This document shows, in pieces, positions 33,753-59,251 of a DNA stretch of 64,000 nucleotides (the first letter of the stretch is position 1; every line of letters begins with the position of its first letter). The position numbers and the translations under genes were made by a program. Below the pieces are notes generated by a model. It saw only the letters and a program-made list of their open reading frames with translations. It did not search any database and had not been told where the DNA came from. The stretch is from Hemerocallis citrina (Eukaryota > Streptophyta > Magnoliopsida > Asparagales > Asphodelaceae), in the NCBI GenBank assembly GCA_017893485.1, contig JACEHZ010000200.1, positions 248,001 to 312,000 on the forward strand. Direction: 5' to 3'.

Positions 33753-33764
33753 CCCCCCACTCCT
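33753..33764 (-). promoter_or_regulatory. Polypurine tract of element D
   Basis: On the minus strand AGGAGTGGGGGG precedes CTCG and the LTR start, identical to the tract of element B (56340-56351). Confidence 0.9.
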
Positions 33765-37850: not shown

Positions 37851-37854
37851 CAAG

Positions 37855-38156
37855 TTGCGGGAGCAGTCATGTAGAAGAAGCTGGACTCCGAACTCACCAT
37901 TTAACGAGTCGTAGATGTGACTCGAAGAGATAGAGAAGAAGCAAGAGCAATAATTTTCAATGAAAAATGTAAAGTTTTATTGAGATAAACTAAGTGGCCG
38001 CTTCAATAAGGCGAGCCATTATTACATGCTATTGGCCGAGTTACAAGCATCGGCCTTATTGAAAATCAAGATCCTACTTCTACAATAAGGTGAAGACCTT
38101 TTGGGAGGAGCTAAGTCTTGAAGCTCGGCGGGCCTTTCTGTTCGTTTGTTGGCTCC
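37855..38156 (-). other. Element D deletion junction and post-integrase segment
   Basis: On the minus strand, gag homology ends near 38110. About 38025-37960 matches the sequence after integrase in element B (49799-49870): TAATAATGGCT, GAAGCGGCC and an AATAAA signal occur in both in the same order. Element D therefore joins gag directly to the post-integrase region. The AATAAA lies near 37977-37982 (minus). Confidence 0.75.
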
Positions 38157-39863
38157 TCAGGGGGGAAGCTCGGCCCCCTCTTTTTGGACGAACTTGGTCA
38201 GGTGCCCCCGCTGTATGAGTTCTTCAATCTCCTCCTTGCGAGCCCGACAATCATCCGTGTCATGGCCTTGGTCCTTGTGAAAGTGGCACCACTTATCCTT
38301 GTTCCTCTTCTTGCCAGGGGTATTCATTATAGGGGGAGCGCGGAGTAGTCTTTCCTTATCCACCTCCATAAGAATTTCTGATATATTAGCAATGAGGGGG
38401 GTGAACTTCTCAAAACGTGGAGTCGAGCGGCGCTGGCCATTACTATCCTTCTGGAATTTTTGGGACCCCTCTTCGCTCGTATTCTTCCGTTTGTTCCCAA
38501 AAGATGTCTCCTCAAGACAAAGGGGGTTGAGAGCCTCTTCTGCCTGTATGTACTTCTCCACCCTAAGTAGGAGCTCTGAGAAGTCCCGAGGAGATTTCTT
38601 AGCAAGGGATGCCCTGAGGTTGGCATTAGCGACATTGTGCTCGAATGCGGCAGCGGCTACTGACTGGTTGAGGAAGGGAATGGACCGGGCTTCGGCGGTG
38701 AAGCTTTGAACGTAATCCCTTAGGCATTCACCCTTTTTGTGGTTGAGGGTCACCAAAGATACACTTGTTTTCTCAGCCCGGTGGCTACTCACGAAATGAG
38801 TAAGGAAGAGCCCTTCGAATTGATCGAATGAGAAGATGGAGGCCGGGGCGAGTCGAGAGTACCATTCTCGTACAGACCCCTTCAGCGTGGCAGGGAAGAT
38901 CTTGCAGAGGAGGGCGTCTGAAGCATGGTGGATCATCATGAGAGTTTTGAAACTCTCTATGTGATCTGCGGGGTCCCACTCCCCGGTATACGTCTCGAAG
39001 TGAGGCGGCTTGAATTTTTCTGGGATGGGGGCCTCCATGATGGTGCGGGAGAATGGAGGTCTGCTCGGGCGGAGGTTTATTGCCTGTTACTCTTCTTCCT
39101 TGTCAATTCGGCCGAGGCGCCTCTCCATCTCGTGGAGACGGCGGTAGAGTCTGTCTTCTCTTTGATCATATCTTACCGAGCCCCGGGACTCATCTTCGTA
39201 CGAGGGTGGACTGGGGCTGCGGCAATGGTAGCTTGGAGAAGGACGAGGACTGAGAGTGTGAAGGCGGTGGCTCCTAGCTGGCTCATGAGTAGGTGGCCTC
39301 TGGTCGTTCTTTGGGGCGATATTGAGGGCCCGTAAGACTGTCGCTTGGAAGTCTTGAAGATCTGCCCTTATGACTGGTGCCTCTCCAACTTGGCGGTCCC
39401 TATGTATGGCTCGGCTTACTGGAGAATGAGTTCTCCGATGATGACGCTGAGGGGACTCTCTTCGCCTCCTCCGGGGAGGGGATCTTCTAGTCCTCGGTCG
39501 GTGGGAGGTCCAGACTCTTGAGGCCCCTGGGTGCTCGGGTTGATGGACTCCACCAAGGGCTCGCCATCCATTCAGGCGAGTTCTGAGGTCGACCCCCTTT
39601 TGGCGGTTGGCAATCACTTGATGGAGATCCCGCTCGGGAGGGCTTTGAGAAGCCATAAATTCATCTGAAGGATTGGGACCCGCGACATGGTCATGAGGAG
39701 GATGTTGCTTCGGACGACTCTGACGGGAGCCCCCCTGGGCAGCCTCCCGAGACCCTGGAGGGGCCTGTTGAGTAGGAGTACCTTGAACCGGAGGAGGGAG
39801 AGGAGGAAGAGAAGTGGTTCTTCGGTTGGAGACCGCTGCCTTCCCCTTCTGTTTTGGATGCAT
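38157..39863 (-). pseudogene. gag: Element D gag, one in-frame stop
   Basis: One frame runs from the ATG at 39863 (MHPKQKGKAAVSN) to a stop at 38157-38159, broken only by a TAA at 39087-39089. The N-terminal half is rich in Arg/Ser/Pro (RTRRSPPRRRRRESPQ) and has the conserved SPSPPSYEDESRGS. The core follows with FETYTGEWDPADHIESF, WYSRLAPASIFSF and a knuckle-like WCHFHKDQGHDTDDC near 38240-38285. Homology to B gag continues a few codons past the stop (GANKRTERP) and then ends, which places the edge of the pol deletion near 38105-38130. With one stop over 569 codons it is far better kept than C gag. Confidence 0.9.
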
Positions 39864-39913
39864 GGCTTGAAACTAGTATCGTTGATGAAGTTAGGTCAGG
39901 TTGCTTTTTCGAT

Positions 39914-39931
39914 TCCCACAGACGGCGCCGA
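39914..39931 (-). promoter_or_regulatory. Primer-binding site of element D
   Basis: CGGCGCCGTCTGTGGGAA is found just inside the 5' LTR on the minus strand. It differs from A and B (TGGTGCC...) in the first and fourth bases. The changed first base would unpair the tRNA CCA end. Confidence 0.65.
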
Positions 39932-39933
39932 TC

Positions 39934-40534
39934 TGTTGCTGCTAATTTTGGTGTGGGAGCAAACAGATGAATTTGTGGATTCTTGGAGAAAACGATTAAG
40001 CAAACATGTTGACCTGTTGACCTTCACCAATGTGTTGACTTGGTCTCTTGCCGCTGCTGCGAACCTGCAAAAAGTGCGAGACACCAGGATGGATCCCGGC
40101 GATGCACCCTCCGACGCTCTTGTCAGTAATCTGAATGATTAAGCAAGAACTTAAACTGGAAAAGTATTGTTTACCTCTTAATGATGGTGGATGCGGGGTA
40201 TTTATAGTCGCCTTTGGGATCAGATTAGGAATGTAATCCCTAGAAACAGATTAGGAATGTAATCCCTAATTCCCATTGAAAGGATAGATATGAATCAGGG
40301 CTGTTGATTAGAATTAATCAGAAACCCTAATTCTACCCTACTGGACTGGGTTCGCTGCGGGTTGAAACCCGCACCCAGTTGAGATGGATCCGTTTATGGG
40401 TTATTGGACTTTGAATAAAGATCCAGTTCCCATTTCAGACCCGTTAGTAGGTGAAATTACTGTTTTACCCCTGAGTTTTAAGATTCGTGTCCGATTTGAA
40501 CGGCCCCGATTTAATCCCATTTTTAGCCATATCA
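39934..40534 (-). repeat. 5' LTR of element D
   Basis: Same length as its partner with no indels. A TATAAATA box (minus) is at 40199-40206. Transcription from here would run leftward through gag. Confidence 0.95.
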
Positions 40535-42221: not shown

Positions 42222-43299
42222 TAATGTAACATCCTAGAATTTTAAATAATATTTTAGAATTTACAAATGAATTAAATTGAATTTTTGTGAATTAATAAAT
42301 ATTTTTCTGAAATTTATCTTTTTTGCACGTGCAAAACACGTGCAAATACTTTCTTGGGAAACACAGTCAGAAAATACATTTGGAAAAATCTGACATTTAT
42401 TAGTACATATTATTTATAAATTTTCTGGATTTTAATGAATGATTTATGACATATTTGCAAATACGCAAAAATGAATAAATTTTGTGCAAAATTGTCATTT
42501 GGAGTAAAAACTCTAGATTTCAATTTTCTGGGCAGTGCATATTGGCCGAAAAATTTAGGAGAATAAGGGGATTTAATTTTATTTGATTTTAAATCAATTT
42601 GATTAGCTAATAATTGGAATGATTCATATATGTAAATAAATAATTTCCTTGAGAAGTAAAATTGTAAACTTTGTGAAACCCTAAAAACTGAAATCTCGGC
42701 CTATATCAGGGGCAGCAACCGCAAATTCCCTATTGCGCACTCAAAACTATTTTCTCATTATTTTCTAGGAGTTTAAAGCTTGGATCTTGGACTTTTGCAA
42801 AAGAGAAAGAAGGGGTTTTTCTTTACAATTTTTTTTGTGCTTCGATTGAATCTTTTTTAGGTGAGTGATACTTTCATAGCTCTTGTTTGCTATATGATTA
42901 TAAATTGTTCAAGTATAATGCATGATTGAAAGTTGTATGATTATGAAATATGATGGGTGATTATAGATTCTAAATGAATAGATAAGTAATCAACATCTTA
43001 CATGAAGAGATATGAAGTTATGAGAAATTTTCCCATGCTTAAATAGTTGATGTATGAGATACACAAAGATCATCACTTTCTTATGTCATGCTTGAATGAA
43101 TGTGTTTGAATTGATATTAAAGGTGTATGAGATATGTAGAGTTGTCATCTAATTAGCATAGATCTAATTTTGTTTGTGTGAGTAATTATTGGATTGTGGA
43201 TGTATATCATGTATAAATAGAATGCAAATTGAATAGTAATGTCATACATGCATATAGATAAATAGAAAATCTTTAAGTTACTGATTTACTTTTGTACTC

Positions 43300-43960
43300 T
43301 GATATGGCTAAAAAACGGGGGTTAATCGGAACCGTTCAAATTGGGCACGAATCTTGGGACCTAGGGGTAAAACGGTAATTTCACCTGCAAGAGGGTCCAA
43401 AATGGGTATTGGATCTTCTCCCCAAGGACCCAATAACCCACGAATGGATCCACCAGCAAGAGGTGCGGATTTTAACCCGCTGCGCACCCGTTCCAACAAG
43501 ATAAAATCAGGGTCCCTGGTTAATCATGATCAACGGCCCTGATATACATCTATCTTTTCACCGGGATTTGGGGATTAAATTCCTTATCTGATTACGGGGA
43601 ATATACCTTATCAGATTACATTACTAATCTGTTTACAAGGAGAATATTCCTTATCAGATCACGGGGATTACATTCCTAATCTGTTCTCTAAGACGCCTAT
43701 AAATACCCCCCATCCATCTCCATTAAGAGGTAATCAATCTTTCACCAGTTTTTACGCTCATTCATAGTCTTCCTAGATTACTGACTTGAGCGTCGGAGGG
43801 TGCGTCGCCGGGAACAACCCCGGTGTTTCGCACTTTTTGCAGGTGTACGGCGGGAGCATCGATCGAAGCCCCAAGGAACAGGTATACAGGTTTACTATCC
43901 AGTTTCCCTAAGAATCCACAAATTCATCTGTTTGCCCCCACACCAAATTTAGCGGCAACA
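43300..43960 (+). repeat. 5' LTR of element B (661 bp)
   Basis: TGATATGGCT to GCGGCAACA. The TATAAATA box is at 43699-43706. U3 carries repeated AATCTGATTACGGGG / AATCTGTT blocks. The end contains GTCGGAGGGTGCGTCGCCGG and TTTCGCACTTTTTGCAGG, conserved with A and D. Confidence 0.96.
43699..43706 (+). promoter_or_regulatory. TATA box of element B 5' LTR
   Basis: TATAAATA inside CGCCTATAAATACCCC, at the same LTR place as in A and D. It sets the U3/R boundary about 30 bases downstream. Confidence 0.8.
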
Positions 43961-43963
43961 GAT

Positions 43964-43981
43964 TGGTGCCGTCTGTGGGAA
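43964..43981 (+). promoter_or_regulatory. Primer-binding site of element B
   Basis: TGGTGCCGTCTGTGGGAA begins three bases after the LTR. It is the same as in element A. Confidence 0.8.
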
Positions 43982-44032
43982 ACTAACGGATAGAAACCTC
44001 TCCTCTTCCCCGAAAACAGGTCTTCTCCAGCC

Positions 44033-46306
44033 ATGCCACCTCGCAAAGTCAGGTCAAGAGGGTCTAACCGAGTACCCAACCCTGACCAGCAAGAAGTCCT
44101 TCCCGATCCCGCTCAGCAACAAGGGCAACTTCCCCCTACCGCGGAAGAGCCGCTCCAACAAAACCTTCCCCCTCCTGATCCAAAGGGTCCTAACCCTCAG
44201 AAACAGCCTCTTCACCAAGAGAACCTCTCCATCCACAACGCCTCCACTGACTCTATGGCCTCCCATCATCCCCGAGCCTCTGGTCGCCACAATGCAGCCC
44301 CCAAACGCCAGAAAGATGATGACCTCCGTCGTCATCTGGATGAAAAACGGGCTCGGGAGGAAGCCTCCCGCCAGCATGAGCGATCCCCTCGTCGCCGAGA
44401 GTACAGGAGGTCCCCCATCCGAAGAGGGAGGAAGGAGTCTCCCGATCATTACCGAAGAAGGCACTCTCCCGTAGGTCGGCAACAGCCCAGGAACAATGAG
44501 GCACCAATCACCCGTGCCGAGTTCCAGCAGTTCCAAGCGACCGTCCTGCAGGCTCTCAACCTCCGTCAGAATCCTATTGAGCCGAAGCTCCCATCCCCTC
44601 CTCCGGTCCGAAGCCCTCGCCGACGGTCTCCCTCTCCTCGACCCGCTCCTACCAACTCCCGGCGTACCCCAAGTCCTCGCCGCTCCCGAAGTTACCATCG
44701 TCGCAGCCCTCGATCTCCCTCATACGAAGACGAGTCTCGTGGCTCGGCAGATTACCGTCGGAGAGATGACACCATGAACCGCCGTCTTCATGAAGTAGAG
44801 AGACGCCTGGGTCAGATAAACCGAGAAGAAGAGCTCAGGGGGAGAACCCTGCGTCCTAGCCGACCCCCTTTCTCCCGAACCATAGTGGATGCACCTGTCC
44901 CGTTCGGCTTCAAACCTCCCCAATTCGAGATTTATACCGGAGAGACTGACCCGGTTGATCACATAGAGAGTTTTAAAACTTTAATGCTCCTTCACCAAGC
45001 TTCCGATGCCCTCCTCTGCAAAACCTTCCCCGCAACTCTCAAAGGGCCGGCCCGAGAGTGGTATTCTCGTCTCACCCCCTCCTCGATATTCTCTTTCGAA
45101 CAGTTTGAAACCCTCTTCGTCACGCATTTCGTAAGCAGCCGAAGGGCAGAGAAGACCAGCATCTCCCTCTTGCACCTTCACCAGAAGAAGGGGGAAAAAC
45201 TGAGAGATTATGTGAAGAGGTTCACAGCTGAAGCCAGGACCATAGCATCTCTCGACCAGTCGGTCGCTACGGTAGCATTTCAATCCAATGTCCTCAATTC
45301 CAACCTCCGCTCCTCCCTCGCCAAGAAACCACCACATGACTTTTCCGACCTCCTCCTTCGCACTGAAAAGTACATCCGGGCCGAAGAGGCCGAGCAACAA
45401 CCCAACCGGGAGGGGTCTGCCTCCGGGCTTAAGAGGAAGGGGACGGAAGAAGAAGGAGCCAAGAAGCTCCAGAAAGATAATGCCGGCCAGCGCCGACCTC
45501 CTCCTAGATTTGAAAAGTTCACTCCCCTCACTACTGACATCTCCACCATCTTCATGGAAGTTGAAAAAGAGGGAGTCATACCCCCTGCTCCGAGGATGAA
45601 CACCCCGGCCAAGAGAAGAGATAAAGAGAAATGGTGCCGCTACCACCGGGACCATGGGCATGATACCAACGATTGCCGTGCTCTGAAGAACGAGATCGAA
45701 GCCCTTATCCAGAGAGGGCAGCTGACCAGGTTTGTAAGAAAAGATCGAGCAGGACTTCCTCCTCCGCCTCCGGGGGCTAACAAGCGTCCGGAAAGAGAAG
45801 AGACGCCAGACTTCGAGGAAGAACGAGTCCTCCACCTCATTCACGGGGGCCCAATGGGGGGTTCCTCGAACTCCTCTCGGAAAGCCTTTATAAGAGAAGT
45901 CAACTCGGTCCGAGCCACCCCTCCTCCCAAAGGCCTCGGAGTGCCAGTCACGTTCTCCGACGAAGATCTCGAGGGAATTCGTACCCCGCATTGTGACGCA
46001 CTCGTCATTAGCCTCCACATGGCGAATTTCAAAGTGGAGAGGGTCTTAGTAGACAACGGCAGCTCCGTCAACATCCTCTTCCTCTCCGCTTTTAAAGGCC
46101 TAAAGCTCTCCAGAGAGAGACTCAAGCCCACCGGCTACACTCTCCATGGGTTCACGGGGGTTCCGGTAACTATTGAAGGGATGATCACCCTCGATGTAAC
46201 TGCCGGCCAAACTCCTACCACCCGGACAGAGCCGATGGACTTCATGGTGGTGGATGTTCCGCCGCCTACAACGTCATTTTGGGTCGGCCAGGCCTCGCAG
46301 CCCTAG
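44033..46306 (+). pseudogene. gag: Element B gag-protease ORF, frameshifted at its end
   Basis: Starts MPPRKVRSRG. Residues about 110-240 are an Arg/Ser domain (RSPRRRSPSPRPAP, SPRRSRSYHRRSPRSPSYED). The gag core runs about 280-440 (PPQFEIYTGETDPVDHIESF, WYSRL). A knuckle-like WCRYHRDHGHDTNDC lies at about 533-548. The aspartic protease has D-N-G at 46052-46060. One base is missing in a Pro codon at 46259-46261 (element A reads VDIPAAYNVILGRPG), so the frame ends early at 46306. The rest of protease continues in the next frame from 46262. Gag and Pol would otherwise be one ORF. It builds the particle and processes the polyprotein. Confidence 0.93.
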
Positions 46307-47391
46307 AAGCTGTTCCCTCAGCATACCATCTGAAGATGAAGTTTCCCACCCGGTCCGGGGTCGGGGAAGTAAGGGGAAATCAGGAGCAGGCCCGGAAGTG
46401 CTACATGACCTCCACCCTTGGGCCCGTCCTCTCCTTAGAGACTCTGGAAATTCCTCAAGACACTGCAAGACCGACCTCCGAGCCGGTGGATGAACTGGAG
46501 GAGGTGCTCTTCTCTGAACAAGAGCCGACCCGCAAGTTCTTCGTAAGCAAGACCCTTCCGTCCGCCCTATACTCAGATATTGTGAAATGCATCCGAACCA
46601 ATCAAGACCTCTTCGCATGGTCCGCAGCAGATATGTCCGGTATCTCCGAAGAACTCCTAGTCCACCGCCTGAGCGTTGATCCGGGGTCCAAACCGGTTCA
46701 GCAGAAGAGACGCAAGTTCGCCCCCGAGCGTCAGCTCGCTATCAAAGAGGAGGTAGACAAGCTGCTGAAAGCCCGATTCATACAGGAGGTAAACTACCCA
46801 GAATGGTTGTCTAACGTAGTAATGGTGAAGAAGTCCAATGGGACGTGGAGAATTTGTATTGATTTCACCGACCTCAACAAGGCCTGCCCCAAAGATCCTT
46901 TCCCTCTACCGAGCATCGACACTCTGATTGACGCAACCTCGGGACATGAGCTCCTCAGCTTCATGGATGCCTTCTCAGGTTACAATCAGATAAGAATGTT
47001 CCCTCCAGACATCCCAAAGACATCCTTTGTGACCGACCGAGGCCTCTATTGCTACAGAGTCATGCCATTCGGCCTAAAGAACGCAAGGGCGACCTACCAG
47101 CGCCTCGTCAACAAGGTTTTCCAGGCCCAGATCGGCCGGAACATGGAAGTGTACGTCGATGACATGCTTGTAAAGAGCATCCGAGGTGTTGATCATGTGG
47201 CCGACCTTCAGGAGGCCTTTGACGTCCTAAGAAGGCACAATATGAGACTCAACCCGAACAAGTGTGCGTTCGGCGTCTCATCAGGAAAGTTCCTCGGCTT
47301 CATGGTTAGCCAACGAGGAATTGAAGTAAATCCGAAAAAGATCAAGGCCATACTGGACATGGCCCCTCCCAGAAATGTTAAAGAAATCTAG
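46262..47391 (+). pseudogene. Element B protease end and reverse transcriptase
   Basis: Open from the frameshift through ILGRPGLAALEA, KFAPERQLAIKEEVDKLL, NGTWRICIDFTDLNKACP, MDAFSGYNQI, PFGLKNARATYQ and the catalytic YVDD at 47152-47163. It ends at a TAG (47389-47391) replacing the Gln codon in KEIQRLTGR. CAG to TAG is a C-to-T transition in a CHG context. Catalytic residues are intact. It would copy element RNA into DNA. Confidence 0.93.
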
Positions 47392-47892
47392 AGATTGACT
47401 GGTCGCCTAGCTGCCATAGGGCGCTTTCTGTCGAAGTCCGGGGAGAAGTGCCTCCCGTTCTTCAAAGCCCTCAGGGGGGCTAAGGGATTCGAGTGGGGGC
47501 AGCAGCAACAGGACTCCTTCGACCAGCTTAAAGCCTACCTCGTTAATCCACCTCTTCTCAGCAAACCGATACCTGGCGAACCACTCTACCTATACTTGGC
47601 AGCTTCCGAACAGACGCTTAGTGCGGTCTTAGTCAGAGAAGAAGAGAGGGCTCAGAAGCCCATTTACTACGTCAGCAAGGTGCTTCGGGACGCCGAGGTC
47701 CGGTACCCGAGGATTGAGAAAATGGCCTATGCCCTGGTAATGGCCGCGAGAAAGCTTCGACCCTACTTTCAGTCCCATTCAGTGGTCGTCCTTACCGACC
47801 AGCCGCTGAAACAGGTCCTTCACAAGCCTGAGACTTCCGGTCGCCTCATGAAGTGGTCGATCGAGCTGAGCCAACATGATATAACTTATTAG
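47392..47892 (+). pseudogene. Element B RT connection and first RNase H
   Basis: Continues in frame with RLTGRLAAIGRFLSKS, then the RNase H fold YLYLAASEQTLSAVLVREE, MAYALVMAARKLRPYFQ, VVVLTDQPLKQVL and KWSIELSQHD. It stops at TAG 47890-47892 where element A has Gln (ISYQPRT). This is again CAG to TAG. Confidence 0.92.
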
Positions 47893-48390
47893 CCGCGGAC
47901 CGCTATCAAGGCTCAGGCGCTGGCCGAATTCATAGTTGAGAGTACAATCCCTAAGCCCTGCCAAACAGTAAAAGGACCGCCGTTTTGGTCAATTTATGTT
48001 GACGGATCTTCTTGCAATGAGGGAAGCGGGGCAGGAGTCATCTTGGCAGGCCCAGACGACTTCATCCTCCAATACTCCCTCCGTATAAACTTCAAAGCTT
48101 CAAACAACGAGGCCGAATACGAGGCGCTAATAGCCGGTCTAAGAATGGCCCGAAATGCAGGGGCACAGCGGCTACAGATCTTCAGCGACTCTCAGTTGGT
48201 TGTCAACCAGGTCCTCGGTGAGTATGAAGCCCGCGATGATAGAATGGTTAGATACTTGGCTAAAGTCAAGAGCCTCATGGCGCTGTTTGACGAGGCTCTC
48301 ATCCAAAGGATCCCCTGAGAAGAAAATGCTCAGGACGACGCCCTGTCCAAATTAGCCTCCTCTTCCCTTCAAGGTCTTGAGCAGACCGTA
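47893..48390 (+). pseudogene. Element B second, archaeal-type RNase H
   Basis: IYVDGSSCNEGSGAGVIL (Asp), NNEAEYEALIAGLRMA (Glu), FSDSQLVVNQVLGEY (Asp) and QDDALSKLASS (final Asp) give all four catalytic positions. A TGA at 48316-48318 stands where element A has Arg (IPREENA). The extra RNase H is the diagnostic trait of the Tat lineage. Confidence 0.92.
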
Positions 48391-49740
48391 TTGATAGAAG
48401 TCCTCTTAAAGCCAAGCATAGAGGACGAAACCCCTGACTCCGTTGAAACGTTGCCTGTCCTCCTCGAAGACAACTGGATGAAACCCATTGTCGAATTCCT
48501 AAGGGACGGACTCCTCCCTGAAGATCCAAGGGAAGCAAGAAGAATCAGGACACGAGCCGAGCGTTTTACTTTAATCGAAGGCATCTTATATAAACGCTTC
48601 TTCACCCAGGTGGACGGTCGGCCTTACCTAAGGTGCCTTTCCCCCGGGCAAGCCGACTACGCCCTGCAAGAGCTCCACGAGGGCATCGGAGGAGCTCATT
48701 CCGGGTCCAGGGCTCTAGCGCGCAAAGTGTTGAACTACGGATATTACTGGCCCACTCTCCTACGGGACGCCGAACGACACGTTCGGCAATGCAGCTCCTG
48801 TCAAAAGTATGCAGACATCCGACGCCTTCCACAAGCACCGCTCACCTCCCTATCAAGTCCGATCCCCTTCGCTATGTGGGGGATGGATTTACTGGGACCG
48901 TTTCCACCAGCTCCCGGACAGCTAAAGTTCCTAGTCGTGGCAGTCGACTATTTCTCTAAATGGATAGAAGTCGAGCCCCTGGCTACAATCACCGAACATA
49001 GAGTCGTTCAATTTTTCTGGAAAAACGTGATTTGCCGGTTCGGCGTTCCCCGAGTCATAGTCACGGATAATGGAACACAGTTCACTGGGGCCGCCTTCCG
49101 AGCCTTATGTGAGGACCTCTCCATACAACACCGATTCTCCTCCGTCTCCCATCCTCAGTCGAATGGCCAAGCAGAGAATGCCAACCGACAGATTCTCTCG
49201 GGCATCAAGAAGAGATTAGACAAGTGTTCCAAAGGACTGTGGGTCGATCAGCTGCCGAACGTACTCTGGAATCACCGCACCACTAAGCGGACCCCAACAG
49301 GCGAAAGCCCATTTAATCTCACCTATGGGGCCGAGGCCATCATCCCCCTAGAAGTCGGGATACCCTCTCCTCGTCTGATAGCTTATGAAGAAGAGCAGAA
49401 CGCTAGAGAACTCAGAGCGAGCTTAGATCTGATAGATGAAATCCGAGAGAGGGCTGCCATACACCAGCAAGCTTACCGAAGGAGGATCGAGCTACCATAC
49501 AACAAAAGGGTCCGACCAACAGACCTCAAAGAAGGGGACCTAGTCCTACGAAAATTGGCCATCTCGTTCCCCGGACAGAAAAGCAAACTGGCCCCGAATT
49601 GGGAGGGACCGTACAAAATCTCAAAAGGGATCCGCCCAGGTGCATACAAGCTAGAAGATCTCGAAGGCAGAGAAATTTTCAGGACTTGGAATGCCGACCA
49701 TCTTTTGAAATACCAAGAGAAGGCAACCACACCTCTCTAA
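48391..49740 (+). CDS. Element B integrase region (open)
   Basis: 449 codons open to a natural stop at 49738-49740. Zinc-binding HHCC: ELHEGIGGAHSGSRAL then CSSCQKYA (about residues 92-135). DDE core: GMDLLGPFPPAPG, VDYFSKWIEVEPL, VIVTDNGTQFTG and SHPQSNGQAENAN (about 165-275). The C-terminal domain with GDLVLRK and WEGPYKISKGIRPGAYKLEDLEG has no chromodomain, as expected for Tat. The first ATG (48391) is only the first Met after the upstream stop. In the live element this was part of Gag-Pol. It joins the DNA copy to the chromosome. Confidence 0.93.
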   Translation: MIEVLLKPSIEDETPDSVETLPVLLEDNWMKPIVEFLRDGLLPEDPREARRIRTRAERFTLIEGILYKRFFTQVDGRPYLRCLSPGQADYALQELHEGIGGAHSGSRALARKVLNYGYYWPTLLRDAERHVRQCSSCQKYADIRRLPQAPLTSLSSPIPFAMWGMDLLGPFPPAPGQLKFLVVAVDYFSKWIEVEPLATITEHRVVQFFWKNVICRFGVPRVIVTDNGTQFTGAAFRALCEDLSIQHRFSSVSHPQSNGQAENANRQILSGIKKRLDKCSKGLWVDQLPNVLWNHRTTKRTPTGESPFNLTYGAEAIIPLEVGIPSPRLIAYEEEQNARELRASLDLIDEIRERAAIHQQAYRRRIELPYNKRVRPTDLKEGDLVLRKLAISFPGQKSKLAPNWEGPYKISKGIRPGAYKLEDLEGREIFRTWNADHLLKYQEKATTPL

Positions 49741-49920
49741 GTAACTCGAGATGTCGAACCATTCCCTTACTAGTAGTGATTTTTTCTTTTATTTTTTCAT
49801 TGTAATAACGGCTAGCAACTTTAGAAGCAGCCGATCATTAGATATTAGTAAATAAAGTATTCTTTTTTCTAGTATTTTCACTGCTACTACATCTCTCTGC
49901 TTTTAACTCTTTAATCTAAC
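49741..49920 (+). other. Post-integrase segment with AATAAA
   Basis: TAATAACGGCT, GAAGCAGCC and AGTAAATAAAG (about 49803-49860) match the element D sequence after gag (38025-37960 minus). The AATAAA at about 49852-49857 may end shorter sense transcripts before the tandem arrays. Confidence 0.6.
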
Positions 49921-50850
49921 AATGGTTCCGGAGTCCAACACTTGGCTCGATTCTACTTCGCAAGTTCGCTCCCAAGCGAGCTAGAAGTAGCTCGCCATTC
50001 GGAACTGCTCCCAAAGCTGTTGAATGGTTCGGAGTCCAACACTTGGTTCGACTCTACTCCGCAAGTTCGCTCCTAAGCGAGCTAGGGGTAGTTCGCCATT
50101 CGGAATTGCTCCCACACCCTTAAACTAACAATGGTTCCGGAGTCCAACACTTGGTTCGATTCTACTTCGCAAGTTCGCTCCCAAGCGAGCTAGAAGTAGC
50201 TCGCCATTCGGAACTGCTCCCAAAGCCGTTGAATGGTTCGGAGTCCAACACTTGGTTCGACTCTACTCCGCAAGTTCGCTCCTAAGCGAGCTAGGGATAG
50301 TTCGCCATTCGGAATTGCTCCCACACCCTTAAACTAACAATGGTTCCAGAGTCCAACACTTGGTTCGATTCTACTTCGCAAGTTCGCTCCCAAGCGAGCT
50401 AGAAGTAGCTCGCCATTCGGAACTGCTCCCAAAGCCGTTGAATGGTTCGGAGTCCAACACTTGGTTCGACTCTACTCCGCAAGTTCGCTCCTAAGCGAGC
50501 TAGGGGTAGTTCGCCATTCGAAATTGCTCCCACACCCTTAAACTAACAATGGTTCCGGAGTCCAACACTTGGTTCGATTCTACTTCGCAAGTTCGCTCCC
50601 AAGCGAGCTAGAAGTAGCTCGCCATTCGGAACTGCTTCCAAAGCCGTTGAATGGTTCGGAGTCCAACACTTGGTTCGACTCTACTCCGCAAGTTCGCTCC
50701 TAAGAGAGCTAGGGGTAGTTCGCCATTCGGAATTGCTCCCACGCCCTTAATCTAACAATGGTTCCGGAGTCCCACACTTGGTTCGATTCTACTTCGCAAG
50801 TTCGCTCCTAAACGAACTAGAAGAAGCTCGCCATTCGGAGTCCAGCACTT
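49921..50850. repeat. 209-bp tandem array in element B, each unit a dimer of about 104 bp
   Basis: AATGGTTCCGGAGTCC starts at 49921, 50130, 50339, 50548 and 50757, an exact 209-bp period: four full units and a partial fifth. Each unit has two related halves, both with GGAGTCCAACACTTGG. Each half holds a long imperfect hairpin: CTACTTC-gca-AGTTCGCT-loop-AGCGAGCT-a-GAAGTAG in half one, CTACTCC...GGGGTAG in half two. Paired changes between the halves keep pairing. Matches the 117-bp units of element D in reverse orientation. Confidence 0.95.
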
Positions 50851-51047
50851 TAGAAGCTACGGCACAGCAGACAACAGTCACAAGAACAAAACACACAAAT
50901 TCGGCAACAACACTTTTATTAATGAAACCGAAGCGGTACAAAGACAAACGCAGCGGGATTACAACTCGTCAAAGAAAAAGCTACAATGCCGACTTATTAC
51001 ACTTAGCAAAAACAAAAAATACTCAACAACTAACAGAGTCGACCACT

Positions 51048-51962
51048 CTAGCGCTTTTTCGGAGCCGGGGCGTTCCGCTTCAAAGACACCCGAGGATGGC
51101 GATGCTTGTCTCCGGAGCACGACCCCAAGCCCGCGAACTGAGACGTGTCCTCGGCACCACTCCTAGTGGCCACTCCGACGGATGCACCGCTCGACGAAAT
51201 TGCCACCGAACTCTGCGCGTCCCCCGGACTGGGTTGGCCGATCCGCTGACGGGTCGCCATCTCATAAAAGGTAATGCCCCACTTGCTCTCAGCGCGAGTG
51301 CATGACGTGCTTCGAACATTGATCGGCCCTGAATGCGGCTTAAGACGGGCCACTTCTGCCTCCAACTCCGAGATCTGATCCCGCAGCGAGTCGTCCTTGA
51401 CGTCGACTTCGAAACGTGGGGGTATCGCGGAGTCCGGGACTCCAGATCGGCAGGCGATGAGGCGCCGAAGGTGGGTGACCTCGATGCTTTTGTCCACCGT
51501 CGCCCTCTTGAGCGCTTCAACTTCGGCAGACAGCTGAACCCGGTCGGTCGTCAATTTGGCCACTTCGGCCGTCAGCGCCTCACCCTCACTCCGAAGCTTC
51601 ACCTCTACGGACTGAAGATGTTGTATTTCGGAAAGCAAATCGTCTCTCTCCGCTGTCATTTTGGACAAGTTATGACGGATGCACTGAACCCGAATCTCAT
51701 TATGGAAATCAGTTGGCGAATATTCACCTTCGGGGATAAGCTCCGCGATCCTACTTTCCAGTCGGCGAATCTCGATATCCCGCCGGCCGAGGATGAGCTG
51801 GAGATGCTTCCTCTCGCTTTCAGCTTGGCGCAAACCGAGCTCGACCTCGTAGAGCCGCTCTCGGCACCTCGCCAGACATAGCCTCGTCGCCCCTAGGCCG
51901 ACCTCGGCTCGAGCTCCTTCATCCGAGCCCAAAGGTTCGACGTCTTGGGCAATCAACATAAG
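51048..51962 (-). CDS. Antisense gene 2 of element B: coiled-coil protein
   Basis: About 300 residues on the minus strand ending ...RVSLKRNAPAPKKR. Residues about 30-205 are heptad-rich coiled coil (RHLQLILGRRDIEIRRLE, AERDDLLSEIQHLQSVE, EALTAEVAKLTTD). The tail has a Lys/Arg cluster that could be a nuclear signal. Just upstream, CTCTTTTGCAG ending at 51963 (minus) is a good 3' splice site, so this may be a downstream exon. The first ATG after it is at 51959. An AATAAAAG signal lies downstream (about 50913-50920 minus). No enzymatic domain is recognised. Its place beside antisense gene 1 suggests shared function. Confidence 0.65.
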   Translation of the reverse strand, partial: LMLIAQDVEPLGSDEGARAEVGLGATRLCLARCRERLYEVELGLRQAESERKHLQLILGRRDIEIRRLESRIAELIPEGEYSPTDFHNEIRVQCIRHNLSKMTAERDDLLSEIQHLQSVEVKLRSEGEALTAEVAKLTTDRVQLSAEVEALKRATVDKSIEVTHLRRLIACRSGVPDSAIPPRFEVDVKDDSLRDQISELEAEVARLKPHSGPINVRSTSCTRAESKWGITFYEMATRQRIGQPSPGDAQSSVAISSSGASVGVATRSGAEDTSQFAGLGSCSGDKHRHPRVSLKRNAPAPKKR

Positions 51963-52245
51963 CTGCAAAAGAGATCGAAGCGATCAGCAAAAATGTCGAA
52001 AACTGCCGAAGCACCACACTTGGAAAAATCTAAGCTAAAGACAAGAAGGGAATGCTCAGCGCAAAAAAGGGGGCAAAAGACAAAGACTGTTGAACACCAA
52101 TACTTGCAAAAAATTTTCTTTTCATTCATTTCAAAAAGTAGCGGTGGCCAGTCCGCTATTAGGCGTTACAACGATTGAAAAGAAAAACAAAAAAAAACAA
52201 AAACAACAAACATACGAGCAAAAAAGAAGAAGACGAGGAGCGGAG

Positions 52246-54348
52246 TCAAGGCCCGACCTCTTTCCCCGGGCGACGAGGTGGAGTAGGGGTGGACTTCGCC
52301 GAAGGAGACGCCGCCGCCAGCGGAGTGATCGTGGCGCTGGGGACCTCGCCAGTAACCCCGGCGTCGGCATCGGCGTCGCCCTCCTCCTCTTCTTCCCCTT
52401 CGGACTCGGGGTCGAAGCCCTCAACGTGTCCGGGGAAGAGCCGCCATCCCGAGACATCCACTGAGGGGTATGCCTCCAACACCCGCGTGAGGGCGGCAGC
52501 AAAGGCCTTCGCCATGTTTTGCGCGAGGAACCCCTGGGCCTTCTCCATGGTCGCGCCCTCCGCCGCCTTCACGGCTGCCGCCTGCTTCGCCTCGGCCTCG
52601 GCCAGCTGCTTGGCCGACCCCTCCTTCTCCCGAAGGAGCTCGCCCTCCAGCCTCTTCACCTCAGCCTCGAGATGCTTGATCCTCGCCGACCGACCCTCAT
52701 GCTCGACTCGGAGCTTGTCGAGCTCGTTCGCCATCCGAGCCTTATCATTCCGAGCTTGGTCGGACTCCTGCTTCAGCTCTTTCTCCAGAGCTGTCAGCCT
52801 CTCGGTGAGATGGCCGAAGTGGACGATGATCTGCAGCAAAGAAGAACTAAAAGAGTTAGAAAAAATTTTCGGTTCAAGAAATACAACAGAAGTGGAGAAG
52901 CTTACCGATACCGCCGAACGAGCGATCTCGATCACGTCGTCGCCTTGCCTCCCCGCCTCCATGGCGGCTCGGTCCTTCAGGGTGGCGAGATGCTTGACAG
53001 CCTGCATGCTCGCCAACGAGTTCCCGAGGAACCCATCGTGCTTCCGGACTTGCCAGTCCGGGATATGAATCCGCTTGTGCTCCTCTGTCAGGAGCTCCTC
53101 GCCTGCCACGGTCAGCGGCGGTGTCGGCATGGCGAGGGCGGCAGCAATGGGGAACTCCCCCACAGGTGAGGGAGCAGAAGTCCCCGCCACGGTGACGACC
53201 GGGGCATCGAGGATCTCCACCCCCTCGTCAGGGGCAGCAATCCTCGGCGTCTTCGAGGTCGAGGGCAGCTTCGACGCGACCCTCTTGCGCTTCTTCGGTG
53301 CCTTACTCGCGAGCCCTGCCCTGAGCGCCAAGACCTCGTCGTAGTCCATGGATTCTGCATCAAAAGTAAAAAAGTGATTAGCATACAAAAAAACAACAAG
53401 GCAGCAAGTACGGAAAAAAGAACTTGACGAGAGCCGCGTACTAGGGTCTACGCGGCAGAGCCCTCCCCTGTAGAGGACGTCCTCCGTCAGCTCCTTCCAA
53501 TCGTACTTCGGACGGTCAAGAAGGATCCGGACCGCCTCTTCTTCTTCTACTGAGAGCCTCGGCATCGCCGTCGCCCTCTTCGGCACCCCTTCTGCCCAGC
53601 TAGAGGGGATCGGCCAGGCCTCACGACTCCGCACGACGAACCACTTCTCTCGCCAGTGCTTAATGGAGTCAGGGCAAACGACGAGTCTGCCGCCGTGCCT
53701 CGGAGTCAAATAATACCGGTACTCCGACCTATTCCCTTGGTGGAGCCGGTATAACGCCCGAAGCACGTTTAGCTGCGGCTCGATCCCTGCGGCCTGGCAG
53801 TGGAGAACGAAACCATTGATCACTCGCCACGCGTTCGGCATCAGTTGGATGGGGCTGACCCCGAACCAACTCACCACGGTAATTGCGAACGCGTGGAGAG
53901 GTAGCCGAGCACCGGCGATAAAAGCATCGACCGGCCAGCAACACATGGTCACTAGCAGCGGCGAATTGGCCCTAACTCCGGGGCCCGGCAGCATGATTTC
54001 GTACTCCTCCGGGATGAAAAACGAATCCCGGATCACAGCCAGTTCCTCCTCGCGCAGGATCGACGCCGCATCGTCCGCCTCCGTCATCTCCCTCGCTTCA
54101 TTCTCCTCGAAGGACCTCTCCCTCCCATGGACAATTCGCTCGGCCTGATCCTCCGGGAGCTGCCTGACTCTGTGTAGTCCCGTCAACGGACCGGGCAGTT
54201 GCCCGAACTCCCCCATCCTCTTCGGATCCTCCACGATCGAATCCTTGCCGAACACTTTGCCTTTGGTCGGAGTCAGTGTCGAGTCCTCGACGTCTTCAAG
54301 GGAGGGCTCGGACCAGGAGACTTCATCGGAGACAGAAGCTAGAGACAT
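52246..54348 (-). CDS. Antisense gene 1 of element B: putative gypsy-type transposon protein (Transposase_28-like), two introns
   Basis: Runs from ATG 54348 (MSLASVSDEVSW) to a stop at 52246-52248. Residues about 105-270 hold the domain known as 'putative gypsy type transposon' (PF04195), with LPLHAFAITVVSWFGVSPIQ, LMPNAWRVINGF and LRALYRLHQG. Two GT-AG introns lie at 53355-53441 (87 bp) and 52831-52905 (75 bp). Both are multiples of three without stops, so the genomic frame is also open. Spliced exons 54348-53442, 53354-52906 and 52830-52246 total 1,941 nt (646 residues). The second half is Ala/Pro-rich, then coiled coil (VHFGHLTERLTALEKELKQ, then 160 residues), ending in an acidic patch SEGEEEEEGDADADAG. 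Function unknown. Extra antisense ORFs of this family are known from Tat elements. Confidence 0.85.
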   Translation of the reverse strand: MSLASVSDEVSWSEPSLEDVEDSTLTPTKGKVFGKDSIVEDPKRMGEFGQLPGPLTGLHRVRQLPEDQAERIVHGRERSFEENEAREMTEADDAASILREEELAVIRDSFFIPEEYEIMLPGPGVRANSPLLVTMCCWPVDAFIAGARLPLHAFAITVVSWFGVSPIQLMPNAWRVINGFVLHCQAAGIEPQLNVLRALYRLHQGNRSEYRYYLTPRHGGRLVVCPDSIKHWREKWFVVRSREAWPIPSSWAEGVPKRATAMPRLSVEEEEAVRILLDRPKYDWKELTEDVLYRGGLCRVDPSTRLSSSSFFRTCCLVVFLYANHFFTFDAESMDYDEVLALRAGLASKAPKKRKRVASKLPSTSKTPRIAAPDEGVEILDAPVVTVAGTSAPSPVGEFPIAAALAMPTPPLTVAGEELLTEEHKRIHIPDWQVRKHDGFLGNSLASMQAVKHLATLKDRAAMEAGRQGDDVIEIARSAVSVSFSTSVVFLEPKIFSNSFSSSLLQIIVHFGHLTERLTALEKELKQESDQARNDKARMANELDKLRVEHEGRSARIKHLEAEVKRLEGELLREKEGSAKQLAEAEAKQAAAVKAAEGATMEKAQGFLAQNMAKAFAAALTRVLEAYPSVDVSGWRLFPGHVEGFDPESEGEEEEEGDADADAGVTGEVPSATITPLAAASPSAKSTPTPPRRPGKEVGP
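52831..52905 (-). other. Intron 2 of antisense gene 1
   Basis: Minus strand GTAAGCTTCTCC ... TTCTTTGCTGCAG, a consensus plant donor and acceptor. Length 75, phase 0, U-rich. Confidence 0.85.
53355..53441 (-). other. Intron 1 of antisense gene 1
   Basis: Minus strand GTACGCGG ... TTTTGATGCAG, with a CTAAT branch-like motif and a T-rich tract before the acceptor. Length 87, in frame. Its translation (RLSSSSFFRTCCLVVFLYAN) is unlike the flanking protein, which supports removal. Confidence 0.82.
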
Positions 54349-54495
54349 AATTGATAATGAATTACCTTAAAAAGCTTTGGTTGCCGGAAAACTTCGCCTG
54401 AGTCAAACGCCGACCACCGGAAAAACTCGCCTGAAGCACAAGAAAACGCCTGAGCAAATGAGAGGAGAAATGAGAAATGAGAGAGGGGGGTGAGG

Positions 54496-54502
54496 ATTTA
54501 TA
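54496..54502 (-). promoter_or_regulatory. TATA box of antisense gene 1
   Basis: TATAAAT on the minus strand in TTCTATAAATCCTCAC, about 148 bases before the ATG. A CT-rich leader (CTCTCTCATTTCTCATTTC) follows. TGGGCC and AGCCCA motifs lie 40-70 bases further upstream, a common plant promoter layout. Confidence 0.7.
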
Positions 54503-54778
54503 GAAGGGGGGCACTCCCAACGAGGCTAATGGGCTCGTACGACCGGCCCATTTAAACCAAACGGCGGAGCAACCCCAATCGTCACCTCGCTAACCATGCC
54601 AAATCATGAGTTGAATTTAATGCGCATCCCGTCTGATAGAAGCCCAGAGGTCACTGCAATTAATGAACGTCCCATCTGTCAGGGTTGTCAAAGTTGTCAG
54701 AGCTGTCAGAGCTGTCAGAGCCACCAGAAGTTCAAATGGCGCACAGAAAAAACAAACCCCTAAAAACGACAAGTCTAG
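54503..54778 (-). promoter_or_regulatory. Promoter-proximal region of antisense gene 1
   Basis: Contains TGGGCCGG (near 54545-54555 minus) and a short tandem AGAGCTGTC / AAGTTGTCAGAGCTGTCAG (54685-54720). No ORF. Confidence 0.5.
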
Positions 54779-55996
54779 AAGTTCGGCACTCACTGCCGAG
54801 CGTTCGTGACACCGATCTTGTTACGGGATAAAAATCAAGCTCGGCACTCACTGCCGAGCGTTCGTGACACCGACCTTGTTACGGGACAAAAATCAAGTTC
54901 GGCACTCACTGCCGAGCGTTCGTGACACCGACCTTGTTACGGGTAAAAAATCAAGTTCAGCACTCACTGCCGAGCGTTCGTGACACCGACCTTGTTACGG
55001 GGCAAAAATCAAGTTCGGCACTCACTGCCGAGCGTTCGTGACACCGACCTTGTTACGGGGCAAAAAACAAGTTCGGCACTCACTGCCGAGCGTTCGTGAC
55101 ACCGACCTTGTTACGGGTAAAAAATCAAGTTCGGCACTCACTGCCGAGCGTTCGTGACACCGACCTTGTTACGGGACAAAAAACAAGTTCGGCATTCACT
55201 GCCGAGCGTTCGTGACACCGACCTTGTTACGGGTAAAAAATCAAGTTCGGCACTCACTGCCGAGCGTTCGTGACACCGACCTTGTTACGGGGCAAAAATC
55301 AAGTTCGGCACTCACTGCCGAGCGTTCGTGACACCGACCTTGTTACGGGTAAAAAATCAAGTTCAGCACTCACTGCCGAGCGTTCGTGACACCGACCTTG
55401 TTACGGGGCAAAAATCAAGTTCGGCACTCACTGCCGAGCGTTCGTGACACCGACCTTGTTACGGGGCAAAAATCAAGTTCGGCACTCACTGCCGAGCGTT
55501 CGTGACACCGACCTTGTTACGGGGCAAAAAACAAGTTCGGCACTCACTGCCGAGCGTTCGTGACACCGACCTTGTTACGGGGAAAAAAACAAGTTCGGCA
55601 CTCACTGCCGAGTGTTCGTGACACCGACCTTGTTACGGGTAAAAAATCAAGTTCGGCACTCACTGCCGAGCGTTCGTGACACCGACCTTGTTACGGGGCA
55701 AAAAATAAGTTCGGCACTCACTGCCGAGCGTTCGTGACACCGACCTTGTTACGGGGCAAAAAACAAGTTCGGCACTCACTGCCGAGCGTTCGTGATACCG
55801 ACCTTGTTATAAGGTAAAAAACAAGTTCGGCACTCACTGCCGAGCGTTCGTGACACCGACCTTGTTACGGGGCAAAAAACAAGTTCGGCACTCACTGCCG
55901 AGCGTTCGTGACACCGACCTTGTTACGGGGCAAAAAACAAGTTCGGCACTCACTGCCGAGCGTTCGTGACACCGACCTTGTTATAAGGTAAAAAAA
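54779..55996. repeat. 58-bp tandem array in element B, about 21 copies
   Basis: The unit has GTTCGGCACTCACTGCCGAG, CGTTCGTGACACCGACC and TTGTTACGGGGCAAAAA, with a period of exactly 58. Each unit has a perfect 6-bp hairpin TCGGCA-CTCAC-TGCCGA. Units are nearly identical. Differences concentrate in the GGGGCAAAAAAC / GGGTAAAAAATC spacer. Shared rare variants recur 406 bp (7 units) and 174 bp (3 units) apart, showing block duplication. The array lies upstream of the antisense promoter and before the 3' LTR. Confidence 0.96.
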
Positions 55997-56339
55997 AAGT
56001 TCGGCAGATCGCCAGACTCACTCCTAGTGCTCGCAGCTATGCCGAACTCGCTTTCCTCTCCGGAAAAGCCTGCCGAACTGCATGTGGACCTCGGCCCCCT
56101 AGTCAGCGAGCCCTAGGGGGGGTTTAAGGCGTGATCCAAATGTATAAGACCCCCGAACAAACGAATTGACGCTTCGCAAAGGACAAAAGGATATCCCTGC
56201 AAGTCGGAGCTCAATCCACTTGGAAAATCACCTCACTACCCCTTCGAGATTCGAAACCCACCATTTGAACTCCGATGCAACTCCGCTAGCCATTAAAACA
56301 GTTAAACTACTCCTCAAAGGCCGATCAAATTTAGCCTTT
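55997..56339 (+). other. End of element B 3' untranslated region
   Basis: Unique sequence between the 58-bp array and polypurine tract. A 71-codon open frame (56166-56381) overlaps the LTR and is considered noise. Confidence 0.6.
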
Positions 56340-56351
56340 AGGAGTGGGGGG
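56340..56351 (+). promoter_or_regulatory. Polypurine tract of element B
   Basis: AGGAGTGGGGGG then CTCG, directly before the LTR start at 56356. Same tract in element D. Confidence 0.9.
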
Positions 56352-56355
56352 CTCG

Positions 56356-57017
56356 TGATATGGCTAAAAAACGGGGGTTAATCGGAACCGTTCAAATCGG
56401 GCACGAATCTTGGGACCTAGGGGTAAAACGGTAATTTCACCTGCAAGAGGGTCCAAAATGGGTATTGCATCTTCTCCCCAAGGACCCAATAACCCACGAA
56501 TGGATCCACCAGCAAGAGGGTGCGGATTTTAACCCGCTACGCACCCGTTCCAACAAGATAAAATCAGGGTCCCCGGTTAATCATGATCAACGGCCCTGAT
56601 ATACATCTATCTTTTCACCGGGATTTGGGGATTAAATTCCTTATCTGATTACGGAGAATATACCTTATCAGATTACATTACTAATCTGTTTACAAGGAGA
56701 ATATTCCTTATCAGACCACGGGGATTACATTCCTAATCTGTTCTCTAAGACGCCTATAAATATCCCCCATCCATCTCCATTAAGAGGTAATCAATCTTTC
56801 ACCAGTTTTTACGCTCATTCATAGTCTTCCTAGATTACTGACTTGAGCGTCGGAGGGTGCGTCGCCGGGAACAACCCCGGTGTTTCGCACTTTTTGCAGG
56901 TGTACGGCGGGAGCATCGATCGAAGCCCCAAGGAACAGGTATACAGGTTTACTATCCAGTTTCCCTAAGAATCCACAAATTCATCTGTTTGCCCCCACAC
57001 CAAATTTAGTGGCAACA
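56356..57017 (+). repeat. 3' LTR of element B (662 bp)
   Basis: Eight substitutions (seven transitions) and one inserted G relative to the 5' LTR. The TATAAATA box is at 56755-56762. Confidence 0.96.
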
Positions 57018-59251
57018 TACTCGCTGTTCTGAGATGAAACATAGAGAGTTTAATGTTGTTGTGGATTGTATTGAATGAGAAGTGAAAGAATTTGATGTTG
57101 AGTTGAATGGATTGACATATTTTGACCAATGAATGTGTTAAACAAGATTACTCTTAGTTTCAAACATGTTTGAATTGTGTTTTCTGTATATGAAGAAAAT
57201 TTTGACTGCAATTGTAAGAGTTCAAATATTCATATGAGACGTTGTTCGAAATCTTGATTTTTTTGCAACAATATGATTTTCAAAAAATTGCTTCTTTTGT
57301 GAAATTTATGAGGATTTGATTTGAAGCATAAATTAAACTGTTTGGCCAAGGATGTACCTGTGTTGTTACAGAATTTTAGCAATTGAAATCATGTATTTGA
57401 AGTTTTATACGTATATCAGTTTTGAAAGAATTGGCTGTCGCAGACTGGACATGCCAGTCAACTGCGCGGTCGATCGCAGTATATATGACGGTTGACTGCA
57501 GTTCAAATGAACGCGCAGTGCAGTCGACTGTCATGCTTGGTCCGTCGCCATTCTTCCCCTGTGCAGTCGACTGCAACAATTTATGCAGTAGCTGTCAGTC
57601 GACTGCCGCAGTGTGAAGAGGAGTTTTTGAGCGCTATCAGTCGACCGCCATTGTTTATACAGTATGAGACTGTCGACCGACAGACTCGAGTTGTGCACAC
57701 TGTTTTGCTGAGTTTTGCTGTTTCTTCGAACGATTGTTTATTTGTGTTTGCAAAGTTAATTTCTCTGATTCTTAGCAATAATTGAACTTAGATTTCACCA
57801 CTGTCAGAGAGTATGTATTCTCAATTTTTATCAAGTACTTAAATTCTAATGCGTGTGGTTTCGAAAAGTGAACATTTCACAAATTCCAAAAGTATTATAT
57901 TGAAATTATTTCGCTGTGAGAGTATAAATCTTAGTTTTGTTCATACTTCGTTTCAGTTTTGATAAATTATACAGTTGTACCTTGGAAGTATTTGGTTTCT
58001 ATTAACTATTGGCTTTGAGGGAAACCTCGTTATGAGTTAGATTATTTGGAGTAATGAGATACTAAGAAATGTTGAGTTGATGTTTGATTTTTGAGACTTT
58101 ATAGGTTGAGTGGGACCCTAACATGCCGGCGGTTGAGATTTTGTAGATATTTTGGCCAGTAGGGCCTTGTTTCTGAGTTAGTTGAATTAAGTTCGGCAGG
58201 GTACACCAACTCTAGGGGGGAATTGTGACTTAACTAATAATAATAAACCTAAGGACATGGGGAATTGTGACTTAACTAATAATAATAAATCTAAGGACAG
58301 ACACTTGTTGGAGTTGTGATGAAATAAGAGCAAACATGGGTAGGGGAGCCTCCTATGACCAGACGGTGGGAGATAAATCTCAGGAATTATCGGGGTTTGA
58401 TCATGGAAAGTGTGGGATGAATCTTCGGGATTACCGGGGGTCGAGGCGACGCTTATGGGATATTTGTGTGATGAGGTACCATTGGCGGATGGTGTGGGTT
58501 TCAATTTCCAAAATTATCGGGGTGTGAGGGTGCGTACCCAGTATCATGGACGATGGGAAAGTTGATTCTCAAGAATTACCGGGGCGTGGCACTATATACT
58601 CACACAATACTCTAAATCTTAAAGTAATCACCGTAGTAGGATTAGTTGCTTAACGTGGGATTGAACCCTATAAAGTGGAGAATGATAAAGGCTTCCACTG
58701 GACCTATGTAGAATGGGATGCATAGAATCCGACAAGTATGCATTAGTAATCATCATATGCATTTATGTTTTCTTAACTTGTTTTATGCATGCTTGATTTT
58801 ATTTTTCTTACACTTGACACTTAGCCTAGCTTCACTTGTTGACTTATAATTTTATTCTTTATGTTTTCATTAAGTTTGTATTTCCTCGAATATCACTCAC
58901 ACTATTTATGGCTGACCCCTGTAGTTTTGGGGGTTAGGAATATCTCTAATCCTATATTTTAGAGGTAGGTACCATTAGCATTGAGTTGGGAGCATGTGGT
59001 AGAATATTTAATGTTTATGCATATCTTGTAAAAGGATTGATTATAAAAAGAAAATTATATTTATAGTGATGTGTTGTAAAAAAATTGTAATTCAAAGTGT
59101 TAGTTCCGCTGTGTTTTGTAAAAAGATGATGTAATAAAAGTTTTTAAATTTTCTAGTGTTGGGACACTATGTTTATGACTACAACTAAGGTTGATTCTGA
59201 AATTTTTATTACGTATTTCTAATTTATTTATTGAAAATTCGGTACGCTACA

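Follow-up and report, generated by a model that had tools for sequence, protein, structure and literature searches.

Is a tandem repeat behind the coding region of a plant retrotransposon a by-product of slippage, or can it be a structure that selection has kept? This question is raised by element B, a long terminal repeat (LTR) retrotransposon in a stretch of 64,000 nucleotides from Hemerocallis citrina (GCA_017893485.1, contig JACEHZ010000200.1, positions 248,001 to 312,000 of the forward strand), which is called the window here and whose first letter is position 1. LTR retrotransposons are found in this plant DNA, and element B carries a tandem array between its integrase and an antisense open reading frame (ORF) of the Transposase_28 type. 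A preliminary description of these letters had proposed that every 209-bp unit is a dimer of two half-units able to form a hairpin, and that matching changes in both arms reflect a selected structure rather than slippage alone. The folds are confirmed, and their reading as a selected structure is supported in part: pairing exceeds a tree-based null in both stems, a separate sample agrees, and pair-breaking variants are rarer when shared by several elements. What is kept is probably a hairpin of the sense RNA.

The array (49911-50839, period 209 bp, 4.4 copies, 97% matches) is internal to element B, 5.5-6 kb away from either LTR. The spacing of its boxes alternates between 101 and 108 bp, so that each 209-bp unit is indeed a dimer of two half-units. 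Nine half-units are found on the plus strand in 49911-50850, with boxes starting at 49930, 50031, 50139, 50240, 50348, 50449, 50557, 50658 and 50766, the final one (from 50766) being decayed. Each unit is a hairpin of about 87 nt with an 8-bp inner and a 7-bp outer stem, flanked by two nearly invariant boxes. In the half-unit at 49930-50012 (plus strand) the 5' box is GGAGTCCAACACTTGG and the 3' box is CGCCATTCGGAANTGCTCCC; the outer stem is formed by 49953-49959 with 49984-49990 and the inner stem by 49963-49970 with 49975-49982. The folds described earlier for the two halves, CTACTTC-gca-AGTTCGCT-ccca-AGCGAGCT-a-GAAGTAG and CTACTCC...GGGGTAG with the loop ccta, are present letter by letter. 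The double change from T to C in the left outer arm and from A to G in the right one corresponds to pair 29-56 (pairs are named by their columns), which among the sampled B units is T-A in 123 of the 124 odd ones and C-G in 104 of the 105 even ones; the neighbouring T.G, pair 28-57, is found in 101 of 105 even B units. Two mismatches, C.A at 40-47 and A.A at 26-59, each recur in 20 of the 124 odd B units, which suggests a recurrent edge form.

The hairpin unit is common to three families of elements, B, A and the gag-only C. The window copy of C (minus strand, 33148-40534, LTRs at 39934-40534 and 33148-33748) has a shortened gag, and at E<=1e-3 it aligns to element B only in the LTRs with short adjoining stretches, in gag and in the array, which in C is a homologous 117-bp array at 37472-37845 (minus strand). 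This copy has neither pol nor an antisense ORF of at least 150 amino acids between gag and the 3' LTR, and it has kept the array; this points to a role in cis. Element A, also on the minus strand, is cut by the start of the window and shows a 115-bp array directly past the integrase in the neighbouring stretch L056. About 3 kb of this copy have no match in B and are enclosed by segments that can be aligned with B's integrase region. For the window copies and those adjoining the window, the array lies about 190 nt (B), 215 nt (A) and 330 nt (C) behind the terminal sense stop, which is that of pol in A and B and that of gag in C. The number of units per array ranges from 2 to 18 or more, and the longest array continues up to the end of its locus. 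Both boxes at a distance of 40-70 bases have 48,606 exact matches (23,309 + 25,297) in the 3.78-Gb genome and 0 in the control, so the unit is very common in this genome. No relatives from outside it were found in viral_contigs, and 25 single pattern matches in prokaryote genomes are taken as chance. A relative of the Transposase_28 ORF was absent among 7,994 scored candidates.

Two samples carry the analysis of pairing. The genome-wide set was collected by searches with each array, taking 30 loci each from 40 scored candidates per search (of 1242, 2128 and 1753); after removal of overlaps it held 432 units, of which 431 were kept and one partial unit was dropped, from 18 A, 23 B and 25 C elements. 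Since these copies are related by descent, the 66 elements represent three families rather than 66 independent cases; the null that was used preserves the tree and the substitutions per column. The genome-order sample consists of the first 32 listed matches of the box pattern (25 distinct), which have exact boxes and were not chosen by their likeness to B. Tree tests used distinct sequences, after dropping units with more than 8 gaps in the genome-wide set and more than 3 in the genome-order sample.

Already in a first alignment of 14 units of A, B and C, 98.3% of the cells were paired (at most 44% in slid controls) and 13 cells had changed on both sides, compared with 4.3 in shuffles (0/500); the five pairs with such a double change were reached by 48/500 shuffles. 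The genome-wide set exceeds the tree null both in paired cells (97.1% vs 89.8±2.5) and in double-change cells (351 vs 56), each 0/500. The same two measures gave 0/500 in each of three balanced subsamples of 60 units, where the number of pairs with at least three double-change cells was matched in 3, 0 and 3 of 500 simulations. Taken separately, the inner stem reaches 2/500 for pairing and 4/500 for double changes and the outer stem 8/500 and 0/500. In the genome-order sample the 21 pairs are 96.6% paired vs 86.8±2.7, with 9 vs 3.4 pairs showing a double change and 35 vs 8.9 double-change cells (0/200 for each); for 18 pairs, 432 of 450 cells are paired, and the cells include 36 G.U, 11 A.C and 7 others.

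Individual pairs illustrate how the letters change while the partners remain matched. At 35-52 almost every A and B unit has G-C and all 99 C units have A-T, pair 34-53 is A-T in 92 C units and flipped to T-A in five, and pair 38-49 is T-A in 67, T.G in 26 and C-G in four of the 99 C units. At 36-51 a T.G pair is found in 191 of 229 B units. In an R-scape-like test of 65 sequences the best structure pairs were 29-56 and 35-52, with ranks 1 and 3. Scaled to the 21 structure pairs their E values are ~0.010 and ~0.018 (~0.12 for 41-46), and with the 25 sequences 41-46 and 29-56 reach E ~0.02 and 35-52 ~0.04. Significant covarying pairs in both stems, named earlier as support, are seen, one in each (29-56 and 35-52), when the test is scaled to the structure, and not over all column pairs.

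Some further helices were tried. For the even half-unit an alternative 3' hairpin prevails in fold prediction and is not kept across families (simulations reached the observed pairing in 71/500 and the double changes in 448/500). The terminal helix pairs no better than the null (189/500), and the basal helix pairs above it (18/500) and has no double changes; these two are for that reason not counted as evidence. An alternative 5' hairpin gave 9/500 for pairing and 194/500 for double changes.

How widely a variant is shared also bears on selection. Over 21 pairs, with 22 decayed terminal odd units excluded, variants private to one element keep pairing in 25 cases and break it in 70; those found in two or three elements keep it in 17 and break it in 22, and those in at least four elements keep it in 16 and break it in seven (private vs all shared, P=0.00076). 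For transitions only, the corresponding numbers of kept and broken pairs are 25/25, 17/14 and 16/5. Arm mutations lacking a partner change at a neutral rate, named earlier as a result that would speak against selection, are thus seen in part: private variants break arms at a neutral-looking rate, as is expected of dead copies. Breakage in private variants together with retention in shared ones is the pattern to be expected if dead copies decay neutrally and selection acts in the lineages that move. Outside the stems, the boxes differ among four classes in 1/17 + 1/17 columns, and the stem arms in 12/30.

A rival explanation of this evidence is that the hairpins have no function. Reverse transcriptase would slip or switch templates at hairpins and so make arrays, and switching within a hairpin would correct one arm from the other. 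The variable copy number and the hairpins in two unrelated arrays nearby (see below) are in line with it. Yet correction of arms should yield perfect palindromes, whereas G.U pairs as at 36-51 and 28-57 are common; moreover, the most conserved parts are the boxes, which lie outside the stems, and pair-breaking variants thin out as sharing rises. We regard an origin by slippage and arm correction alone as unlikely.

As to the strand, the evidence is suggestive and favours a structure of the sense RNA over one of the DNA. Predicted folds have a lower z-score in sense than in antisense for all seven unit types (one unit each), with -5.6 vs -1.5 in C, -4.1 vs -0.5 in B even and only a slight advantage in B odd (-3.4 vs -3.0). 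When the whole array of B is folded, the inner stem has a predicted pair probability of 0.94-0.96 in seven of nine sense units and, on the antisense strand, of 0.00-0.30 in eight of nine, the last unit reaching 0.54. Among shared transitions there is a bias to G.U on the sense strand, clear only in the class of at least four elements; the context of G.U at pair 39-48 (691 genome matches) has, taken alone, no bearing on the strand. Together, lasting G.U pairs and the sense-strand bias of folding point to RNA.

Several observations weigh against a selected hairpin of the sense RNA with a role in recognition. In the full set the pairs with at least three double-change cells are not extreme in number (6 vs 3.1 under the tree null, 29/500). 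No single pair reached E<=0.05 over 2,926 column pairs, a set containing some duplicate C and A units, or over 2,346 column pairs in other sets. Pair 38-49 is C.A in 61 of 103 A units (C-G in 34, T-A in five), and T.T occurs at 36-51 in 14 of 124 odd units and at 26-59 in three of the 25 units of the genome-order sample. The second half of the dimer is able to form the hairpin that had been described, but in the predicted fold of the whole array its outer stem is mostly unformed, since the competing 3' hairpin is preferred; the pair probability of this stem averages 0.00-0.28 in the four even units, against 0.95-0.98 for the four full odd units. The absolute energy is lower on the antisense strand for B odd and A units, the contrast between strands is weaker in A and C, with one antisense unit at 0.86 in A and one at 0.89 in C, and the strand bias of the variants is weak (33 shared transitions keep and 19 break the pair, private ones 25 and 25). 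Finally, known packaging signals are usually located near the 5' end.

The surroundings of the array help to ask what the hairpin is for. Element B is a full-length Retand-type Ty3/gypsy element, complete in outline, flanked by a 5-bp target duplication (TACTC at 43295-43299 and 57018-57022). Its 5' LTR (43300-43960, plus strand) is 98.6% identical to the 3' LTR (56356-57017, plus strand). Between them gag (44033-46306, PF03732), the ORFs of reverse transcriptase and RNase H (46279-47892; PF00078, PF17919, PF17917) and integrase (48391-49740; PF00665, PF17921) follow on the plus strand in gypsy order, the integrase ORF providing the last sense stop ahead of the array. The minus strand contains an ORF with no Pfam match (51048-51968) and, between pol and the 3' LTR, the Retand signature, an ORF with Transposase_28 (52246-54348, PF04195, E 1.7e-13). 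A protease domain was not matched among the scanned ORFs of element B. The region from pol to the 3' LTR (49741-56355) measures 6,615 bp, slightly above the largest Retand value given in PMC11963269 (2,933-6,566 bp).

Between stop and array lies a block (49795-49865, plus strand) with TGTAATAA and AATAAA that, in our own reading, resembles a plant poly(A) site. The 230 nt ahead of the array contain an AATAAA in 65 of 66 elements (17/18 A, 23/23 B, 25/25 C; background 10%), at a nearly fixed place relative to the array in all three families. By eye, the block at about 49790-49860, TGTAATAA[C/T]GGCT...AATAAA, is alike in A, B and C, and it may hold a further small hairpin. On the other side an antisense AATAAA (50910-50920, minus strand) is found downstream of the antisense ORFs; within 150 nt past the array end it is present in 15/18 A and 21/22 B elements (one further B locus ended too early) and in 0/25 C, with a background of 6.9%.

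From the covariation in both stems, the conserved boxes, the nearly fixed place behind an AATAAA signal and the retention in C we suggest, tentatively, that the array serves the retrotransposon as a cis-acting RNA element in many copies, situated in the sense transcript and not coding; recognition or packaging as the job of the hairpin is a slightly less likely possibility still. Pairing that is kept while the letters change, between boxes conserved by letter, is typical of sites at which a protein recognizes RNA. A transcript that stops at the poly(A)-like site inside the element would be mRNA and lack the hairpins, and read-through genomic RNA alone would carry them; with hairpins restricted to this genome-length RNA, its recognition would be the first guess. 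The repeated hairpins would then mark genomic RNA for binding by Gag, the gag-only C elements might be packaged in trans, and the number of copies could tune affinity. A model for a parasite that keeps its cis signals and uses the Gag of another element is available in BARE1/BARE2, where mRNA and packaged RNA form separate pools and the Gag-less parasite is packaged in trans; those elements belong to a different group and no hairpin array is named in the available part of PMC3735527.

Compared with this cis-acting recognition signal, a role in RNA stability appears unlikely. Hairpins past the last stop would protect RNA whose 3' untranslated region is very long (6.6 kb in B) against nonsense-mediated decay, as does the stability element of Rous sarcoma virus (RSV), which is likewise an RNA element right behind the stop, immediately downstream of gag, in a long-3'-untranslated-region retroelement transcript (PMC5580461). 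The array is at the same kind of position, 190-330 nt past the terminal sense stop. But the poly(A)-like signal precedes it, and mRNA with its end at that signal would neither contain the array nor require protection. The RSV element also differs in being 400 nt long, in an abstract that describes no array of one hairpin, and in having a function shown by experiment, as against a proposed one here.

Still less probable is that the array serves as a boundary of converging transcription units, at which polymerases pause or transcripts end between sense gag-pol and antisense Transposase_28. In most A and B elements the two AATAAA signals do stand opposite each other on either side of the array; family C retains the hairpins with no antisense signal in its 25 elements and, in the window copy, no long antisense ORF.

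An element acting as DNA is improbable. It could consist of sites for dimeric proteins (CCAA-CAC-TTGG, GGA-G-TCC, TTC-G-GAA) or of a cruciform, perhaps bound by the Transposase_28 protein, whose domain is predicted to bind DNA according to the consulted text of PMC11963269, and the nearly invariant, partly palindromic boxes would suit it; the lasting G.U pairs and the sense bias of folding do not, and C retains the units, with no such ORF seen in its window copy. A dimer-initiation hairpin of the retroviral kind is dismissed by loops that are not self-complementary (CCCA/CCTA in B, CTTA in aligned A and C units), a kissing-loop dimer by a TTAA loop core confined to A and C, and a ribozyme or other known RNA family by the lack of any match at E<=1 to the Rfam 15 covariance models, ribozymes included, in 43000-57500.

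Tandem arrays behind pol are in themselves well known. About half of the recently active Retand elements have them, with repeats that are called family-specific and of unknown origin and function (PMC11963269, as far as available), and satellites have been derived from such arrays in Ogre elements (PMC7004042, Vondrak 2020), and arrays behind pol of Tat/Retand elements are a known source of plant satellite DNA (PMC11963269; PMC7004042). The position in the element, the antisense Transposase_28 ORF and the variable arrays are alike here. Unlike the family-specific repeats described there, a single unit is found here in three or more families, one of them gag-only, and it combines nearly invariant boxes with a hairpin that covaries. 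The main text of PMC11963269 does not contain the words hairpin, stem or secondary structure, nor that of PMC7004042 the words hairpin, palindrom, dyad or secondary structure, and no report of a covarying hairpin in Retand 3' arrays was found by title and abstract opening in the openly licensed literature. Sirevirus motifs are also repeated, palindromic and non-coding in a plant LTR element, but according to the available text of PMC2829016 they are short, have mostly a CGG-CCG core, are located in the LTR (and next to env as well in two elements) and are compared with transcription signals in DNA, in contrast with the ~87-nt hairpins of the internal region described here.

Other arrays of these elements are of mixed character. 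Element B has a second one (54779-56006, plus strand, 58 bp x 21) with the unrelated hairpin GTTCGGCA-ctcac-TGCCGAGC, in which a T.G pair occurs in 20 of 21 copies and z is -3.6 in sense and -0.3 in antisense. A 115-bp array of element C (36110-37482) shows two hairpins per unit, GGCTCT/AGAGCC (also AGAGTC and AGAGTT) and CAACTCT/AGAGTTG, with z of -4.3 in sense and -2.2 in antisense for one unit. Its 92-bp array (34581-35037) has little structure (sense z -1.7), so not all arrays in these elements are hairpin arrays.

The hairpin array is a candidate cis-acting RNA signal for plant Ty3/gypsy elements, and as a covarying hairpin shared at tens of thousands of places it makes testable which protein or process reads such arrays and whether repeat number matters. 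A wider generalization, which we put forward as rather doubtful, is that the 3' arrays of Retand elements are multivalent RNA recognition sites instead of slippage debris, which mark the genomic RNA and let gag-only relatives be copied in trans. If this were true, repeat number would be a dose under selection, and satellite DNA grown from such arrays would begin as a functional RNA motif. Hairpin arms that change together between related elements suggest that a repeat regarded as junk has a working role in the element's RNA.
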